Positions 20,842 to 33,923 of a stretch of 33,923 nt of DNA are shown here, piece by piece. The stretch's first letter is position 1; the number at the start of each line of letters is the position of its first letter. Made by a program: the position numbers and the translations under genes. The stretch comes from Candidatus Delongbacteria bacterium (GTDB lineage Bacteria; JAGOEH01), in NCBI GenBank assembly GCA_017997825.1, contig JAGOEH010000011.1:1-33923 (forward strand). Reading direction: 5' to 3'. The notes under the pieces are model-generated. The model did not search any database. It saw only the letters and a program-made list of their open reading frames with translations, and was not told the DNA's origin.

Positions 20842-21273
20842 ATGACGGAGAAAACCAAAACTCACGCTATCGTCCAACGGGTTGACGGGCTGACATTCGC
20901 CGCCCGTTCCAATTCCAACCACTGGGTCATGATGGATACCAGCCGGGAGTTCGGCGGGGCTGGAGCTGGATCGACCCCGATGGAATTGATTTTGATGGCG
21001 CTGGGGGGGTGCACCGGGATGGATGTATTATCGATTCTGCAAAAAAAACGCCTGAAAGTGACCGATTTGAGGTTGGAACTGGAGGGCGAAAAATCCACTG
21101 ACTACCCCATGGTTTATACCCATATTACCATCACCTACCATGTTTATGGTCATGGCATCAAGGAGGAGGATGTCAAGCGGGCGGTGGAATTGTCTGAAAG
21201 CAAGTACTGCAGTGTCCAGGCTATGCTGCGGCAATCCTGTCCGATTACATTAAACTATCAGATTTATGACTGA
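20842..21273 (+). CDS. OsmC/Ohr-family peroxiredoxin-like protein
   Basis: A 143-residue OsmC-family protein of the YhfA-like branch. Members of the family reduce organic hydroperoxides with two cysteines. FGGAGAGSTPMELILMALGGCTGMDV holds Cys57 in the conserved helix, and SKYCSVQAMLRQSCP holds Cys123 and Cys133. Cys57 and Cys123 are the likely pair. GGGAGGATTCT precedes the ATG. It is 90 bp downstream of thioredoxin, so a trxB-trx-osmC thiol-peroxide group is plausible. Its last 29 bp overlap the end of the histidine kinase gene on the other strand. Substrate is unknown. Confidence 0.9.
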   Translation: MTEKTKTHAIVQRVDGLTFAARSNSNHWVMMDTSREFGGAGAGSTPMELILMALGGCTGMDVLSILQKKRLKVTDLRLELEGEKSTDYPMVYTHITITYHVYGHGIKEEDVKRAVELSESKYCSVQAMLRQSCPITLNYQIYD

Positions 21274-23029
21274 TGATCGGATCGTGATGCGGTTTTTTTG
21301 ACTGGGGCTGATCCTGGGGAATAACGATTGTGATAGTCGCTCCTAGCCCGCGGCCTTCACTTTCGGCCTGAATCGTTCCGCCCATGCTGTTGACGGCATT
21401 GGCACACGAATGCAGTCCGAATCCATGTCCTGAGTTTTCCCCTTGCTTGGTGGTAAACCCCCAAGTGAACATGTGGTCCAGATCCTCTTTCGAGATTCCA
21501 CACCCGGTATCCCGAACCTGGATCATGGCTGAATTCTCCCGGACCTGGGTGCTGATGTAAACCCGTTTATGATTTCCATCTCCCATTTGAATGGCTTCAA
21601 TTGCATTTTTCCCAACATTGACCAGGACCTGGTGGAGTTTAATCCGTTCCAGTTTCAACATCGGCATTTTGAGATCGTAATTCTCGACCAGTTCGATACC
21701 CAGGCGGTCAATCTTATCCTTGAAGATGCTGACGGAGTCCCGAATCAGCTGTGCCAGATCAACCTGTTCGATTACGTTCATCCCGGCATAGCGCTGCTGG
21801 GTATTCAGGATGTCCGTAATCAGTGATATTCGGCCCAGCAGATAATTCATGTGGTTGGAAAACTCGTGACTTTGCTGTTCCATAAAGCTGATATAGCTTT
21901 CAAAATACTGGATAAATTTCTCACCTTTCGGATCCTCCTGGAGAAACCGATCCAGCTGGCCTCGCTTATCCTTGATCAACTGGAGTATCTTTTGCAGTTT
22001 GGTTACATTCGGCATGGTGTCCTCACGGGATAACAGGCTAAGCCTAACATTGATGCTGGTGATGACATTACCGATGTTATGCAGCACGGAGGAGGCCAGT
22101 TCGGCTTTTCCGGCCTGATGGGCGGATTCTACCAGTTCCTCCTGGGCTTTTTTTAATTCCTCGGTTGTTCGGCTCAGATTGGCGTTTTTTTCCGCCAGTT
22201 CCGAGGTTCGTTGTTCAACCTGATCCTGGAGCTGTTTGGTATTGTTTTCGATCCAGCGGCTGATGGCGATGATTTCGTCCCCGTATCCGATCAAGGCTTT
22301 GATTTCCTCATCCGAAAGCTTGTAATCACGGGTTGAGATATTACGGATTTTGTCGACCAATGCTTCCAAGGGGTGGATGATATTGCGATTGATTAAAAAA
22401 TAGGCGGCTGTAAATCCGATGATGAAGGCCAGCGCGCTCAGGTAAAGAATCTGGTGCAGCATGGCCTTGATTTCCCGTTCCAGACTCTGGAAAGAATAAT
22501 AAAAGATAATATTGGCCGTATGACGGTTGAAGAAGTCATAATAGGGGATCAAGACCGCCATGATTTGTTTGGAGGGGCGGCCGGACTGGATGGTGGAGAA
22601 GATCTTTTTGGCTCTCATGGCATTCAGAATGGTTTCATCCTGGACGATTCGACGGCTTCCCCGGTATTTTCCATCATTGAACTCTTCGGTGCTGAAGGCT
22701 ATGATTCCACTGGTGTCTGTGATTTCAACCCGTTCCAAATCCCGGTTCAGGTCGAAAACCCTGGACTGGATCTCGCTTTTCAATGTGGCGAACGCATTGA
22801 CATAGTTGGCGGAAAACAGATTCACCATATGCAGGCTGGATTGGGACGAGAACGCTATGTTGCTTTCTTGGAAACGGATATGTTTTTCGTTCTTGTTGGT
22901 CAGATAGATATAAGAAAAGGAAAGTACCAGCAATATAGAATAAAGGATTCCAAAAATCACGGATAAACGCAGCTTCAGCGAAATTCTGCTAAAACGAGTC
23001 ATTTCGGATTCAAGGTTCATACCATCCAT
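21245..23029 (-). CDS. Membrane histidine kinase paired with a periplasmic binding protein
   Basis: A 594-residue sensor kinase. Membrane segments at about 23-45 and 193-215 enclose a periplasmic sensor of about 145 residues. A HAMP-like stretch and a coiled coil (about 262-310) lead to the H-box SVLHNIGNVITSINV with the likely phosphorylated His317. The ATPase domain has NVGKNAIEAI (Asn475), RDTGCGIS (about 506-513) and GHGFGLHSCANAV. The LHNIGN type of H-box differs from the classic HExxxP. It starts inside the last 20 bp of the solute-binding protein gene, implying coupled translation. No response regulator is next to it; the GGDEF regulator 8 kb away is the only one in the window. Confidence 0.93.
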   Translation of the reverse strand: MDGMNLESEMTRFSRISLKLRLSVIFGILYSILLVLSFSYIYLTNKNEKHIRFQESNIAFSSQSSLHMVNLFSANYVNAFATLKSEIQSRVFDLNRDLERVEITDTSGIIAFSTEEFNDGKYRGSRRIVQDETILNAMRAKKIFSTIQSGRPSKQIMAVLIPYYDFFNRHTANIIFYYSFQSLEREIKAMLHQILYLSALAFIIGFTAAYFLINRNIIHPLEALVDKIRNISTRDYKLSDEEIKALIGYGDEIIAISRWIENNTKQLQDQVEQRTSELAEKNANLSRTTEELKKAQEELVESAHQAGKAELASSVLHNIGNVITSINVRLSLLSREDTMPNVTKLQKILQLIKDKRGQLDRFLQEDPKGEKFIQYFESYISFMEQQSHEFSNHMNYLLGRISLITDILNTQQRYAGMNVIEQVDLAQLIRDSVSIFKDKIDRLGIELVENYDLKMPMLKLERIKLHQVLVNVGKNAIEAIQMGDGNHKRVYISTQVRENSAMIQVRDTGCGISKEDLDHMFTWGFTTKQGENSGHGFGLHSCANAVNSMGGTIQAESEGRGLGATITIVIPQDQPQSKKPHHDPIISHKSDSLM

Positions 23030-24284
23030 TTTGTTCTACCTTTTTATGAATCGTTTCCAGGTTGGCTTCCAACAGATCGGATTTATACTCCAGGCTTATG
23101 ATTTTCTGCAGGGTTTCCAGGGCCAGATAATTATAATCATGGCTGATATTCTCATAGCCCCATCCGAAGAGTAGGGTTGGTTTCCGGTTCAACAGGTCAT
23201 AAATCATTCGGCTGTTGGGAGAGAGTGATTGGATGTCGGTCGTACGGATTCCGGAAAGCCGTTTAACTTCCCGGTTCCAGCGGTTGATTTGCCGGGTATT
23301 TAATAAACTCTTCAGGAACTGAACTGCTTCGGCTTTATGAGGAGATTTTTCGTAGATGCATAATCCGTTGTTCAGTTCGATGAACAGGTAGTGATCACCG
23401 ATCGTGGTGGTCTGGTTCAGATTGAACATGGGCAGGATACCCATGTCGGAGGGCTGGAAGGGAGAAGAGAGGTAGGCGGTGCTGCTGATATACATTCCGG
23501 CCCGTTTTTCACTAAATCGCTGCTGGGCTTCCAGATCGGATATATTCTGAAAATCTCCTTCATTATAAGGTCGGTAGGTGGCAATAATGGTCTGGTAGAC
23601 CTTGAAGGAGGTAATCAATTCCCGGTCATTCCAGGGAAGACGCCCCGAAAGAAACTGATGCATTTTATCCGGCCCCAGGCGCCGCAGCATGATGTGAAAC
23701 AGAAAGGTAGCCCCTTTCAGAAAATCATCCCCCTTCATCCCAATCACCAGCGGTGAAAAATTACTGATTCTCCGGCTTTTCAGATTCTTGCAAATGATCG
23801 AGAATTCACTCAGAGAAAAATTTTCCGAGGAGGGGATGGGAATTCCAAGCTCATTAAACAGGCGTTTATTGTAGAATATGACGAAGGTCGATATCTCCAG
23901 CGGGAACAGATTGAGATGGTTCTGCTGGAGATGCTTGACGATCACCGGCTGAAAATAGGTTCTGAAATCGAAATACCGGGAAAGCGGTTCCATAACGGAT
24001 AACCGATTATTTTTAATATTGTCGGTCGGAACAAATATATCGGGGGCATTCGGGGCTTCCGGTAAAAGAAATTTAAACTCCACCTCTCTGGAGAACTGCA
24101 GCGGATCACTGGCATGACAGATTTGAATCGTGGTTTGGTTCTCCCGGTTATAATCAGCTACCAGGGTATCAATATAGGATTTAAGGCTGGTATTGGTTCC
24201 CCAGTTGGTGGTTATCATCAGAGATTCAGCCATACTGTAGCTGGATAACAAGAGAAAAAAGAGTATGAGGTGAAGTTGTTTCAT
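23010..24284 (-). CDS. Periplasmic solute-binding protein (ABC sugar type), orphan from its transporter
   Basis: A 424-residue extracellular solute-binding protein of the sugar/family 1 type. Residues 1-19 form a Sec signal peptide (cleavage near SMAES) with no lipobox Cys, so it should be soluble in the periplasm. Supporting features are NWGTNTSLKSYIDTLVADYN near the N-terminus, PNAPDIFVPTDN, FVIFYNKRLFNELGI and the hinge-side EKSPHKAEAVQFLKSL. No permease or ATPase gene is adjacent. Its end overlaps the histidine kinase start by 20 bp, which suggests it presents a ligand to that kinase. The ATG has no Shine-Dalgarno site and lies at the predicted transcription start. The ligand is unknown. 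Confidence 0.88.
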   Translation of the reverse strand: MKQLHLILFFLLLSSYSMAESLMITTNWGTNTSLKSYIDTLVADYNRENQTTIQICHASDPLQFSREVEFKFLLPEAPNAPDIFVPTDNIKNNRLSVMEPLSRYFDFRTYFQPVIVKHLQQNHLNLFPLEISTFVIFYNKRLFNELGIPIPSSENFSLSEFSIICKNLKSRRISNFSPLVIGMKGDDFLKGATFLFHIMLRRLGPDKMHQFLSGRLPWNDRELITSFKVYQTIIATYRPYNEGDFQNISDLEAQQRFSEKRAGMYISSTAYLSSPFQPSDMGILPMFNLNQTTTIGDHYLFIELNNGLCIYEKSPHKAEAVQFLKSLLNTRQINRWNREVKRLSGIRTTDIQSLSPNSRMIYDLLNRKPTLLFGWGYENISHDYNYLALETLQKIISLEYKSDLLEANLETIHKKVEQNGWYEP

Positions 24285-24291
24285 TTAAACT

Positions 24292-24320
24292 ATGATATAT
24301 CAAGTCATCGGGTTTGTCAA
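24292..24320 (-). promoter_or_regulatory. Promoter of the binding protein-kinase pair, leaderless geometry
   Basis: Minus-strand TTGACA (24320-24315), 17 bp, TATCAT (24297-24292). The -10 box ends 7 nt before ATG 24284, so transcription should start at 24285 or 24284. Confidence 0.75.
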
Positions 24321-27432: not shown

Positions 27433-28269
27433 ATGGCACGGTTGTTTTGGCTGGCAGGATCATGGGTTTGTGTTTTGATGCTTTGTATTACGGCAGGTGA
27501 TTTGGAAAAAAACGGCTGGAAATTGATCTGGCAGGATGAATTCAATGGAAAGAAACTGGATGGAAAGAAATGGAATGTTTTACTGCGGGAACAGAGTAAG
27601 CATAATGAGCTGCAGTATTATGTTCCGGATGAGGTTTATGTGGAGAATGGGTATCTAAGGATTCGAAGCCGGATTCGTACTTACGGGTCGATGGCCTATA
27701 CCAGCGGTCGGTTGGATACCCGGGATAAGTTTTCACCGGTTTACGGCCGGTTTGAAATCAGGGCCAAGCTCCCGGGCGGCCAGGGATTATGGCCGGCGCA
27801 CTGGCTTTATCCCCAAAAGCGTAATTGGGAGATGGAGTATATTATGGGACAAGCCGTGGCTGAAGGATTGGAACGATTAATTCCTGAAGAACGCCCCTGG
27901 TATACGGAAATTGATATTATGGAATTTCTGGGCCACCAACCCAATACCCTTTACGGAACCCTTCATTATTGCGGATATGACGGACAGCGTAAAAACAGTT
28001 CGGGGACATGGAACGGGACGTGCGATTATACCCGGGATTTTCATGTTTATGCTCTGGAGTGGGAACCGGATTCGATCCGCTGGTATGTCGACGACCGTTT
28101 AATCCATGCCACCACTTTGGGAATTCCCCATACACCCCATTATCTCATTCTGAATACGGCGATTGGAGGCAGTTGGCCGGGTAATCCGGATTCAACAACT
28201 GTTTTTCCCCAGTACCATGATGTTGATTATGTGAGGGTTTACCAAAAAGCGGCCTACTTTAAGCCGTAA
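27433..28269 (+). CDS. Glycoside hydrolase family 16 (laminarinase-like beta-glucanase), secreted
   Basis: A 278-residue GH16 enzyme that hydrolyses beta-1,3 or mixed-linked glucans. Residues 1-21 form a signal peptide. WQDEFNGKKLDGKKWNV, GRFEIRAKLPGGQGLWPAHWL and the catalytic EIDIMEFLG (nucleophile Glu159, acid/base Glu164) define the family, and HVYALEWEPDSIRWYVDD follows as expected. Between PAHWLYP and the catalytic strand there is an acidic stretch of roughly 15 extra residues (about 130-156), longer than usual for laminarinases. GAGAGGTAATCA precedes the ATG. It is alone, without a sugar transporter or other glycanase, and ends 7 bp from the convergent fumarase gene. Confidence 0.92.
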   Translation: MARLFWLAGSWVCVLMLCITAGDLEKNGWKLIWQDEFNGKKLDGKKWNVLLREQSKHNELQYYVPDEVYVENGYLRIRSRIRTYGSMAYTSGRLDTRDKFSPVYGRFEIRAKLPGGQGLWPAHWLYPQKRNWEMEYIMGQAVAEGLERLIPEERPWYTEIDIMEFLGHQPNTLYGTLHYCGYDGQRKNSSGTWNGTCDYTRDFHVYALEWEPDSIRWYVDDRLIHATTLGIPHTPHYLILNTAIGGSWPGNPDSTTVFPQYHDVDYVRVYQKAAYFKP

Positions 28270-30027: not shown

Positions 30028-30459
30028 CTATTGCTCCAACTCGAGATTGCTTTTACGGATCATGCCGCTGATATGAACCAACAGATTTTCCAGTAAGCGG
30101 AGGTACAAATCTCGATCTTCCGTTTTGAGTCGATCGAAATTCTGTCGGCTGATGTATAAGAATTTACAGTCGGTATGACATAGCGCGGAAGCAGATCGGG
30201 ACAACTGGTCGATAAAGGAGAGTTCCCCCACCAATGCCACTTCCCTTAGAACCGGGAGTGATCGTTTGGAATAAGGGGTTTCAATCTGAATGCGGATTTC
30301 ACCCTCGATCAGGATATAGATTTCCGTCGATGTGTCGCCCTGACGAAACAGAAAATGGTCGGCATGGACGGTTTTGGATTCCAGCATCTGATGGATTCTG
30401 GTGAGCTGTTCAGGGGTGAGGGAGGTGAACCAGGGGCATTTTTTAAGCGGATGCGGCAT
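30028..30459 (-). CDS. Single-domain cyclic-nucleotide-binding protein
   Basis: A 143-residue protein made only of a cNMP-binding (CRP/PKA regulatory-like) domain. The beta-roll shows LFRQGDTSTEIYILIEGEIRIQI and the phosphate-binding cassette VGELSFIDQLSRSASA, with Glu and Arg at the places that hold the cyclic phosphate. There is no DNA-binding helix-turn-helix, so it cannot act as a CRP-type transcription factor by itself and may be a regulatory partner. It lies 14 bp after the GGDEF response regulator gene and 7 bp before murB in one operon. The ligand and partner are unknown. Confidence 0.88.
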   Translation of the reverse strand: MPHPLKKCPWFTSLTPEQLTRIHQMLESKTVHADHFLFRQGDTSTEIYILIEGEIRIQIETPYSKRSLPVLREVALVGELSFIDQLSRSASALCHTDCKFLYISRQNFDRLKTEDRDLYLRLLENLLVHISGMIRKSNLELEQ

Positions 30460-30473
30460 GGGAGAATCCTTTG

Positions 30474-31685
30474 TTAACCGTTCTGATTTCCGGACCAGAT
30501 CAAGATGGAATCCTTACCGGAGCGTTTGACTCGGTACAGGGCCGAATCGGCTCGTTTGATGACATCCTGAAGATGGAGTCCATGAGAGTACTCGGCGATT
30601 CCGATCGAACAGCGGACCGGATAATAATTCTCCGGTTCCAGCTCGATTCGTTTTAGGATTTCATCGATATTTTCCTGATTATCCAAATTGGTCAGCAAAT
30701 CCCGAACTTTGACGGCGGTGAGCATTTGCTCGCCGATCCTCCGGCAAATGGCGGCGGCATTGGGGGCCGGGCAATCCACATAAATCATGGTGAATTCGTC
30801 ACCTCCATAGCGGGCTACCACATCGATATCCCGGCAGTTCTTTTTCAGGATGCCGGCGATAGCTTGGAGAACCGTATCACCGTTTAGATGCCCAAAGGTA
30901 TCATTAATGACCTTGAAATTGTCAATATCCAGGATCGCCAGTGAGAAGGTATAGGTGTTCGGATTGTAATGGCGTTCCGAAAAGCGTTCAATGCGTGATA
31001 TCTCCAGTTCCATCTGTTTCTGAAATTTTCTGAAATTGAACAACCCGGTCAAAGGATCGGTATTGGACAGAATTTCCAGCTTTAGAACCAGTTCTTTGAG
31101 CTGTTCGGTTCGCTCCGAGACCTCTTGCTCCAGTTTTTGATTATAGTTTTTTAGTTCGGCCTCAGCCCGATTTTTCTGGTCATTCAGGTTCCATTTTTCG
31201 GTCAGTGCCAAGGCAAATTGTTTGATTTCATCGATGTCAAACGGTTTTTTCAGGAAAAGGATTTTGCTGGGAGTGCCGACTTCATGGATGATATCCTTGC
31301 GGTTATGGTCTGAATAGGCCGTCACGATCACAATTTCGATATCCTTGTCCAAGCGTCGGATCTGTTTGGCGGTTTCTTTCCCGTCAATTCCCGGGGGCAT
31401 CCTCATATCAATAAAAGCAACAGCAAAAGGCTTATTTTCATGCCGGGATTTGACAACCTCCTCAACCCCAATCTGACCCTGAGTGGCATAAACTACGTCA
31501 TAACACTCGTCATCCGCGAAGCTGAGATTGGGGTGGGGGGATGAAATCGGCCCATCGCCGAAAACGTCGTCTTCCAGGGCGTTCAGTTTGAGTCTGGATT
31601 CATCCTGTAAAGGCTCCAGAATAGTCCGATAGACATCCAGAACTTCCTTTTGATCGTCAATCACCAAAATTCGGTTATTGTACAT
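30474..31685 (-). CDS. Response regulator with GGDEF (diguanylate cyclase) output
   Basis: A 403-residue regulator predicted to make cyclic di-GMP when phosphorylated. The receiver has the acidic pair Asp10/Asp11 (VIDDQKEV), phosphoacceptor Asp93 (FIDMRMP), Thr122 and Lys146/147 (FLKKPFD). Asp93 is about 40 residues later than usual because of an insertion (about 27-65) before strand 2. A coiled coil (about 165-205) leads to the GGDEF domain with DIDNFKVINDTFGH, active site GGDEF (294-298) and the inhibitory RDID site five residues before it, so product feedback is likely. ATG 31685 is chosen because an upstream start would lie within the promoter. No Shine-Dalgarno sequence is visible. Confidence 0.93.
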   Translation of the reverse strand: MYNNRILVIDDQKEVLDVYRTILEPLQDESRLKLNALEDDVFGDGPISSPHPNLSFADDECYDVVYATQGQIGVEEVVKSRHENKPFAVAFIDMRMPPGIDGKETAKQIRRLDKDIEIVIVTAYSDHNRKDIIHEVGTPSKILFLKKPFDIDEIKQFALALTEKWNLNDQKNRAEAELKNYNQKLEQEVSERTEQLKELVLKLEILSNTDPLTGLFNFRKFQKQMELEISRIERFSERHYNPNTYTFSLAILDIDNFKVINDTFGHLNGDTVLQAIAGILKKNCRDIDVVARYGGDEFTMIYVDCPAPNAAAICRRIGEQMLTAVKVRDLLTNLDNQENIDEILKRIELEPENYYPVRCSIGIAEYSHGLHLQDVIKRADSALYRVKRSGKDSILIWSGNQNG

Positions 31686-31717
31686 AATAGTATTGACTTT
31701 CGTATTAGTTTTGTTTA

Positions 31718-31745
31718 AATATAATCGAAATCTGTCGTTTGTCAA
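31718..31745 (-). promoter_or_regulatory. Promoter of the GGDEF-cNMP-murB-fumarase operon
   Basis: Minus-strand TTGACA (31745-31740), 16 bp, TATATT (31723-31718). Predicted start near 31711, 26 nt before ATG 31685. Confidence 0.72.
31720..31725 (+). promoter_or_regulatory. Possible -10 box of the patatin gene, overlapping the divergent promoter
   Basis: A perfect TATAAT on the plus strand shares four bases with the minus-strand -10 box of the GGDEF operon. Its nearest -35-like hexamer, TTGACT at 31693, is 21 bp away, which is too far, so this promoter would be weak or need an activator. Confidence 0.4.
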
Positions 31746-31766: not shown

Positions 31767-33923
31767 ATGATGATAAAAAAAGCGGTATTCCTTTGGTTAT
31801 GGTGGGTTATCCCTCTTTTATCCTATCCGATCCGCCTCAATTTTGAGGAGCGTCCCTGTATCAATTATCTGCCGCATCGGGAACGGGTTCTGGCTCAGCC
31901 CCGAGTCGGTTTGGTTCTGAGCGGGGGTGGTGTTCGGGGATTGTGTCAGATTGGGGTGATTCGCGTATTGGAAGAGAATGGGATCCCGATCCGATATATT
32001 GCCGGCACCAGTATCGGGTCGATGATTGGGGGATTGTATGCCGCGGGAGTCCCGATCGACAGCATCCAGCGGATAGCCGTTACCGGAGTGTTGGACTGGA
32101 AAGAGCTGTTTTTTTCCGACAATCGGGAAAACCGGTATTATTATTATCAACGCAACATGGCCGACAAGCATATCATTGGTTTTCGATTCCGGGGATGGGA
32201 TATCCAGAAGCTTCAGGGGATCAGCTATGGGCAAAACCTTTTGAATCTTATTTTTCGCTATACCCTGCAGAATAATGTAGCAGCCGGACTCAATTTTGAC
32301 CGCTTGATTATCCCGTTCCGTTGTGTTGCCACCGACCTGATCAACGGCCGTCCGGTGGTTTTCGATCACGGGTTTCTCTCGGATGCCATCTTCGCTTCAG
32401 CCAGTGTTCCCACGGTCATCTTCCCCTATATGGTCGATTCGGCGTACTGCATCGATGGAGGTATTCTGAATAATATCCCGGTGGATGTCATTCAGTCATT
32501 CAATCCCGATTTGATAATTACGGTGGATAATTCCAGTCCCCTTCGGAATGAATCCAATCTGAATACCGTGTTCGATATTTTTGATCAGATTACCACCATT
32601 ACTGCCCTGGATAAGAATCAGCAGCAACGGGATCAGTCTGATATCCTGATTTCTCCGGATCTGTCCGGGATCAGTTCCAGCGATTTCAATCAGATCGATT
32701 CCATCATTCAGTTAGGCTACCAGGCCGGGATTCGAAAGATTGCACAGATCAAGCGGATGGTTCAGGAACAGAAGCTAAGCCAACTGCCGGATACCTCCTT
32801 TTTCATTTCCGAAATCCGATGTCCGGATTCCCTACTGCGCGCGACATTGCCCTATATGATGGTTCCCGGACGATTTTCCCATCGTGAACTTTATTTGATC
32901 CTGGAACATGCTTATCGGTCCGAACGTTTCAGTGATATCCGGATCGATATCCATCAGGAGGAATCCCGGACAGTTGCGGAATTCAGCGGTGACCGCAATC
33001 GGTTCATCAAGACCATCAACTGTGAGTATAAACCGGCCAAATGGTCGTCCCGTGATCTTTATTCCATCCTGTATCATTATGAGAATCGGAATTATTCCCC
33101 GGCCGTGATTGATAGTTTAATCCGAAACGTCAATCAGTTCTTTTCCAATAGTGGCTACACCCTTTATTTTGTCGATGATTACCATTTTGATCCGGCTGAC
33201 AGCGCCCTGTTCCTCCGGATTCATGCCGGCCGGATCGATTCAATCAGTTTCAGGGGCCATCAGACGGTTCATCCGAGCTATCTGGCTAAGCAAATATCGT
33301 TCAAGAAAGGTGATGGATTCAACTCCATGACCCTGGATCAGTCGATGGAACGCATTTACAATACCGGCCTGTTCAATCGGGTCAGCTACCGGATCATACC
33401 CGAATCCAATGAATGGTATCATATCATGATCCAGACTGAGGAGAAACCGATGGGGATCATCCGGATGGGCTATCAATACAATAATTATGAGCGATTGCTG
33501 GGGTATTTCCAGATCGGCTATGACTATACCCGTCTGGTGGGCAATGCGGTTTATCTCAGTTCGGTCATCGGGAAGAGGAATTCGCTGACCCTGACGCTGC
33601 AGGCGGATGAGGTTATGGCGACCAATCTGGGGTATCGGATCAATCTGAGCATCACCGATCAGCCCCGATACTGGTATCAATCGAATCAGCCACGAATCGA
33701 TTACCGTCAGCAACGGCATACCTATTCGTTTTCTATTTCCGGCAATTACCTGAAACGGATCGGTGTCTCGATGCTATCCTTCGACTATGTCACAGCCGAC
33801 AATTACCGGGCGGTGGATTATCCGGAGCATCGGGCCAATTACTACTATTCCTATTGGAGTGTCGGTAATGTTATCGATTCTAGGGATCATCTGGTGTTTC
33901 CGTCGCGCGGAATCCTCTTTTAT
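31767..33923 (+). CDS. Patatin-like phospholipase fused to POTRA and BamA-type barrel (partial)
   Basis: A predicted type Vd-like outer-membrane protein that carries a lipase domain through its own barrel; 719 codons are visible and the end is cut off. After a signal peptide (about 1-22) the patatin domain has the oxyanion loop SGGGVRG (52-58), nucleophile Ser82 in GTSIGS and the catalytic Asp230 in DGG. Then come POTRA-like segments at about 345-400 and 490-545 (ISFRGHQTVHPSYLAKQI), possibly a third between, and barrel strands from about 555. Characterised PlpD/FplA proteins have one POTRA, so this one looks longer. ATG 31767 and 31770 are both possible; there is no clear Shine-Dalgarno site. 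Confidence 0.92.
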   Translation, partial: MMIKKAVFLWLWWVIPLLSYPIRLNFEERPCINYLPHRERVLAQPRVGLVLSGGGVRGLCQIGVIRVLEENGIPIRYIAGTSIGSMIGGLYAAGVPIDSIQRIAVTGVLDWKELFFSDNRENRYYYYQRNMADKHIIGFRFRGWDIQKLQGISYGQNLLNLIFRYTLQNNVAAGLNFDRLIIPFRCVATDLINGRPVVFDHGFLSDAIFASASVPTVIFPYMVDSAYCIDGGILNNIPVDVIQSFNPDLIITVDNSSPLRNESNLNTVFDIFDQITTITALDKNQQQRDQSDILISPDLSGISSSDFNQIDSIIQLGYQAGIRKIAQIKRMVQEQKLSQLPDTSFFISEIRCPDSLLRATLPYMMVPGRFSHRELYLILEHAYRSERFSDIRIDIHQEESRTVAEFSGDRNRFIKTINCEYKPAKWSSRDLYSILYHYENRNYSPAVIDSLIRNVNQFFSNSGYTLYFVDDYHFDPADSALFLRIHAGRIDSISFRGHQTVHPSYLAKQISFKKGDGFNSMTLDQSMERIYNTGLFNRVSYRIIPESNEWYHIMIQTEEKPMGIIRMGYQYNNYERLLGYFQIGYDYTRLVGNAVYLSSVIGKRNSLTLTLQADEVMATNLGYRINLSITDQPRYWYQSNQPRIDYRQQRHTYSFSISGNYLKRIGVSMLSFDYVTADNYRAVDYPEHRANYYYSYWSVGNVIDSRDHLVFPSRGILFY

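Follow-up and report, generated by a model that had tools for sequence, protein, structure and literature searches.

Overlapping genes for a solute-binding protein and an LHNIGN-type histidine kinase on a Candidatus Delongbacteria contig, with a predicted output in cyclic di-GMP

The gene pair described here is located on a contig of Candidatus Delongbacteria bacterium (JAGOEH010000011.1), analysed over its whole length of 33,923 nucleotides and referred to below as the window. It consists of a gene for a family-1 solute-binding protein (SBP), the 3′ end of which overlaps the 5′ end of a histidine kinase gene (Table 1). An earlier note on this DNA had reported an overlap of 20 bp between the two open reading frames (ORFs), and this figure is exact; choosing an in-frame ATG further downstream as the kinase start would shrink it to 11 bp. 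As both frames are full-length and give significant family matches, the arrangement is not a mere accident of the ORF list, and the overlap suggests coupled expression. The term “fused” used in that note does not apply, however, as these are two separate overlapping genes and not a fusion protein. What was overlooked at the time is that this real, well-formed pair has a predicted output in cyclic di-GMP (c-di-GMP).

Table 1 Features of the window, with positions counted from its first letter
Feature	Position	Strand	Evidence
Two-TM (transmembrane) histidine kinase, 594 aa	21245..23029	minus	ORF, HATPase_c, LHNIGN H-box
Overlap of SBP 3′ end with kinase 5′ end, 20 bp	23010..23029	minus	ORF coordinates
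Exported family-1 SBP (SBP_bac_1, oligosaccharide-type fold), 424 aa	23010..24284	minus	ORF, PF01547
Promoter-like TTGACA-17-TATCAT	24292..24320	minus	11/12 matches; -10 box ends 7 nt before SBP start
Insert-type receiver fused to GGDEF (diguanylate cyclase), candidate cognate response regulator	30474..31745	minus	Domain and motif evidence

The SBP matches PF01547 (SBP_bac_1) with an E-value of 3.2e-8 and 34.4 bits, passing the gathering cut-off of 26. A signal peptide covers residues 1–19 (MKQLHLILFFLLLSSYSMA, cleavage between SMA and E), which is sequence-level evidence of export, and the mature protein looks soluble. Its closest sequence in the PDB is the chitin-oligosaccharide binding protein 7ehp (E 6e-7). 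An AlphaFold2 model built from 20 aligned SBPs (pLDDT 74) returned xylan- and chitin-oligosaccharide SBPs as top Foldseek matches (4g68, E 3.8e-18; 7ehp, E 6.9e-18), and comparison of the model with 4g68 gave TM-scores of 0.71–0.76, in line with the two-lobed SBP_bac_1 fold. On account of these structural matches the ligand is probably an oligosaccharide, the fold by itself naming no particular one. A gene for a secreted GH16 glucanase is found 3 kb from the SBP gene (27433–28269, plus strand); given this neighbour, a β-glucan oligosaccharide would be our guess. Scans of genome-contig and viral-contig collections yielded no direct relatives of the SBP, and among 192 genomes there were two weak matches (L010 and L011), the available stretches of which hold no kinase gene. 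In the comparison set, the phylum of the organism is represented by the window's own genome alone.

The kinase has two transmembrane segments (aa 20–38 and 195–213) and an LHNIGN H-box with His317 (codon ~22081–22079), both as previously noted. Approximately 155 aa between the segments make up the extracytoplasmic sensor domain (~aa 39–194). The HATPase_c domain is recognised with an E-value of 2.2e-21 and includes DTGCG at aa 507 and GHGFGLH at aa 534, so that the H-box histidine and the N, G1 and G2 motifs of a histidine kinase are all present. The LHNIGN-type H-box and end-to-end similarity of the core place the protein in what we call the LHNIGN group, of which it is the one member in its genome as far as our searches show. 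The model of the sensor domain is poor (pLDDT 62.5, pTM 0.42); with a best Foldseek E-value of 5e-3 and VIA-align Z-scores of at most 7.5, it leans towards a PAS/CACHE-like shape.

The absence of an adjacent response regulator, also stated in the earlier note, is literally true. Still, the kinase is probably not without a regulator, since a matching type of receiver, fused to a GGDEF domain, is encoded on the same contig and strand, 6.2 kb from the SBP gene. This receiver has approximately 45 extra residues between its first helix and second strand, as placed from the sequence, and is denoted “insert-type” in the following. With the phospho-accepting Asp (in FIDMRMPP), the GGDEF motif (aa 314) and the inhibitory I-site RDID (aa 305) all kept, the protein should be an active, feedback-inhibited cyclase. 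A scan with an LHNIGN-kinase alignment provided 80 relatives from Acidobacteriota, Desulfobacterota-type bacteria, Gammaproteobacteria, Planctomycetota, Verrucomicrobiota, Balneolota and others. An insert-type receiver, matched end to end including the insert, was present at 44 of these 80 loci versus 0 of 40 control-kinase loci (Fisher p 6e-11). In a separate genome-level test, 386 genomes were searched with both kinase and receiver. Here the receiver occurred in 7/8 genomes with an LHNIGN kinase versus 0/378 others (p 3e-14); with three candidates scored per genome, there are at least eight LHNIGN genomes. The sole LHNIGN genome without a receiver at threshold (G004) has a diverged HNAGN kinase and, beside it, a weaker copy of the receiver. 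The window's genome encodes exactly two insert-type receivers, one in the window and one on contig C16, both on GGDEF proteins. Neither gene adjoins a kinase gene, whereas the kinase and receiver genes are neighbours in the other six of the seven receiver-positive genomes. In view of the strong association between LHNIGN kinases and insert-type receivers, one or both of these proteins are likely to be the partner of the kinase.

On the input side, LHNIGN kinases are accompanied by orphan SBPs from six or more families. Upstream of the kinase are SBPs of the types Peripla_BP_6 (L061), ABC_sub_bind (L075), SBP_bac_8 (L078), Phosphonate-bd (L079, phosphonate-binding) and Bmp (L138), as well as an SBP-like family of Acidobacteriota (L064, L066, L088, L095, L122) that is distantly related to ABC_sub_bind (hhalign E 2e-6). 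No ABC transporter genes adjoin these SBP-linked kinases in the available stretches, and the kinases do not form one clade on the kinase-core tree. The sensor of the window kinase was aligned with theirs, and profile comparison revealed no reliable similarity. Two loci, L061 and L078, stem from the same Desulfobacterales genome. Identity between the two kinase cores is 80% (72% when the last 400 aa are compared), yet the sensor domains are unalignable and the families of the SBPs unrelated. That SBP and sensor domain change together in front of a constant kinase is as expected if the two form one unit, and L061 and L078 represent a natural domain-swap pair for asking this question. L061 is moreover the kinase most similar to that of the window by core score (40% identity over 301 aa). 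Its gene row, SBP, kinase, insert-type receiver and HD-GYP, would wire an SBP to a c-di-GMP phosphodiesterase and is the best counterpart of the window among the related loci. As a tentative generalisation, it is possible that the widespread LHNIGN kinases with insert-type receivers carry interchangeable SBP–sensor cassettes, by which unrelated SBPs gate c-di-GMP and other outputs via a single conserved kinase–receiver route, the window providing the family-1 (sugar-type) example.

Other accessory genes at LHNIGN loci encode YfiR-like (L074, L080, L082, L108, L136) and FIST proteins (L073, L117). In Planctomycetota and Desulfatirhabdium, the gene for a YfiR-like periplasmic protein immediately precedes that of the kinase; in other settings, YfiR is known to regulate a cyclase from the periplasm. 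At the five Acidobacteriota loci listed above, an extra gene of ~230–250 aa overlaps the start of the SBP-like gene, in most cases with a signal-peptide-like start. In the window's own genome, accessory genes overlap or closely precede five other kinase genes (L158, L161, L170, L172, L175), the accessories being caspase/PEGA, YfiR-like, GH2-like β-sandwich, SBP_bac_3 and FIST proteins.

The recurrence of orphan SBPs of different families beside related kinases, in loci without transporters, speaks against the notion that the kinase senses a ligand of its own with its extracytoplasmic domain while the SBP is merely co-transcribed, as a bystander or the leftover of a lost transporter. The joint change of sensor and SBP before near-identical kinase cores in one genome and the coupled expression suggested by the overlap argue in the same direction. 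Conversely, the PAS/CACHE-like leaning of the weak sensor model points to a class in which direct ligand binding is common, SBPs are usually parts of transporters, and in Pseudomonas aeruginosa the kinases AgtS and AruS do not bind the SBPs encoded next to them (PMC11113362). Taken together, we consider a bystander SBP rather unlikely.

With regard to the output, c-di-GMP domains are found on 17 of the 46 insert-type receivers of the relatives, the other 29 being linked to kinase or other outputs. This count, and the lack of a regulator gene in the operon, would be compatible with phosphorylation of another, ordinary response regulator and an output other than c-di-GMP. Such an outcome appears unlikely when set against the very strong association of LHNIGN kinases with insert-type receivers and the presence of GGDEF on both receivers of this genome.

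Transport was addressed at the level of gene content. Four SBP_bac_1 proteins are encoded in the window's genome, including that of the window. The genes of the other three (contigs C73, C108 and C222) have BPD_transp_1 permeases close by on the same contig, and the window SBP is the only one of the four without. The earlier note had seen no permease or ATPase nearby; in fact, neither a permease nor an ABC ATPase is found among the genes of the entire 33.9-kb contig, so that its gene content does not assign the SBP to an ABC importer. It is this context, unlike that of the other three SBP_bac_1 genes, that sets the window SBP apart from transport. The objection that homologous SBPs are mostly found beside permeases holds for SBP_bac_1 in general; it applies neither to the window SBP nor to those SBPs that accompany related kinases. 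Because the SBP is an orphan from transport here and related kinases are found next to orphan SBPs of several families, a dedicated sensing role via the kinase is the best-supported reading of the sequence data. SBPs that act in trans exist, and the genome has 14 BPD_transp_1 matches, but an importer encoded elsewhere that is served by the window SBP and regulated by the kinase (compare ChvE–VirA, or CuaDSR with its separate transporter operon) is unlikely, as on the three permease contigs looked at (C73, C108 and C222) the permeases come with an SBP_bac_1 gene of their own and the window SBP is only distantly related to these SBPs (phmmer E 0.67 for C108 and 4.6 for C73). Two long SBP_bac_1 frames were checked as potential SBP–kinase fusions; one turned out to be an SBP–permease fusion (L214), the other an SBP frame extended too far, with a permease next to it (L201).

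In summary, we consider it reasonably probable that SBP and kinase form a transport-independent sensor that signals via an insert-type receiver-GGDEF protein to c-di-GMP. The exported SBP would bind a solute outside the cell, most likely an oligosaccharide judging by its fold, and act on the extracytoplasmic domain of the kinase, as suggested by the gene overlap, its orphan state and the related loci. The kinase would then change the phosphorylation of an insert-type receiver, to which the strong association points. The partner is most likely the receiver-GGDEF protein of the window, or else its paralogue on C16 or both, and a change in GGDEF activity would shift c-di-GMP synthesis, as the intact motifs lead us to expect. 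Ligand, phosphotransfer, direction of effect and physiological output are parts of this chain that we infer. If it is correct, solutes outside the cell can control c-di-GMP by way of a free SBP and a dedicated kinase–receiver pair, and the receiver insert permits genome-wide prediction of the regulators of orphan LHNIGN kinases.

Several observations weigh against this assignment. The contact between SBP and kinase is one that we infer, and AgtS and AruS illustrate that adjacent genes may encode proteins that do not interact. The earlier note had proposed to search for the same pair in other genomes, and the exact pair was found in none of those scanned. An SBP is located beside the kinase at 10/80 LHNIGN loci versus 1/45 control kinases, which is not significant (p 0.10), and the loci counted are related and not independent; a claim of significant enrichment was dropped, and the argument from SBP neighbours stands on family diversity, not on frequency. 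The window receiver is encoded 6–10 kb away and outside the operon, which has no cognate regulator of its own. How closely a receiver resembles that of the window is poorly correlated with kinase similarity (rho 0.23, p 0.10); for resemblance to the C16 receiver the correlation is better (rho 0.52). As a means of choosing between the two receiver-GGDEF proteins this correlation failed, and the partner is not separable. Finally, as a draft with 93% completeness, the genome may lack a further LHNIGN kinase or a third receiver of this type.

The promoter-like site ahead of the SBP gene is weak, with 7 such sites found and 6.8 expected in shuffles. No Shine–Dalgarno sequence precedes the SBP start codon; provided that the putative promoter is real, the mRNA is possibly leaderless. 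Beside the receiver-GGDEF gene, a stand-alone cyclic-nucleotide-binding domain protein of 143 aa (30028–30459, minus strand) starts 14 bp after it on the same strand, and the frame at 31767–33923 (plus strand), which encodes patatin and POTRA domains, is divergent from it and remains open-ended where the contig end cuts it.

The designation as an undescribed sensory system, made in the earlier note, is too strong, since CuaDSR, XylFII–LytS, LuxPQ and TorTS already define sensing by SBP and kinase. In Ruminiclostridium cellulolyticum, CuaD is a dedicated sensing SBP that binds the outer domain of CuaS with or without ligand (PMC10384115). As is proposed for the window, this is a family-1 SBP for sensing and not for transport, encoded next to a two-transmembrane histidine kinase (PMC10384115), and the window pair shares the arrangement of adjacent SBP and kinase genes without a transporter. 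The differences are that CuaD is a lipoprotein whereas the window SBP looks soluble, that the outer part of CuaS comprises 266 aa (~155 aa in the window kinase), and that CuaR is an AraC-type DNA-binding regulator from the same operon, in place of which the window has a likely partner of the receiver-GGDEF type outside the operon. For LuxP–LuxQ, TorT–TorS and XylFII–LytS, structures of the SBP–kinase complexes have been solved (PMC6321045). These likewise feature a dedicated or signalling SBP on the outer domain of a kinase, but differ in SBP family and kinase type, and their outputs are not known to proceed via an insert-type receiver-GGDEF protein. A description of an SBP feeding a receiver-GGDEF protein through such a kinase was not found in the open-access papers searched, and a review of c-di-GMP sensing lists SBP_bac_3 as the only member of the periplasmic-binding-protein clan studied in such networks (PMC8846402).

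On the output side, NosP–NahK–NarR of Legionella pneumophila resembles the window in that a separate sensor gene accompanies the kinase and the regulator is a c-di-GMP enzyme (PMC11237717, PMC8846402). NosP shares an operon with its kinase, and NahK is likened to the window kinase by description and not by its sequence. A Legionella LHNIGN kinase (L130) is encoded beside an insert-type receiver-PAS-GGDEF-EAL protein, and the gene row at L117 reads FIST, LHNIGN kinase and insert-type receiver-PAS-GGDEF-EAL. The inputs differ, as the SBP of the window is exported whereas NosP, a FIST protein for NO, is cytosolic. The kinases of L130 and L117 lack the predicted transmembrane segments of which the window kinase has two. 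The window thus presents known parts in a new combination, with an input resembling CuaDSR and LuxPQ placed on a kinase and receiver resembling NahK–NarR.

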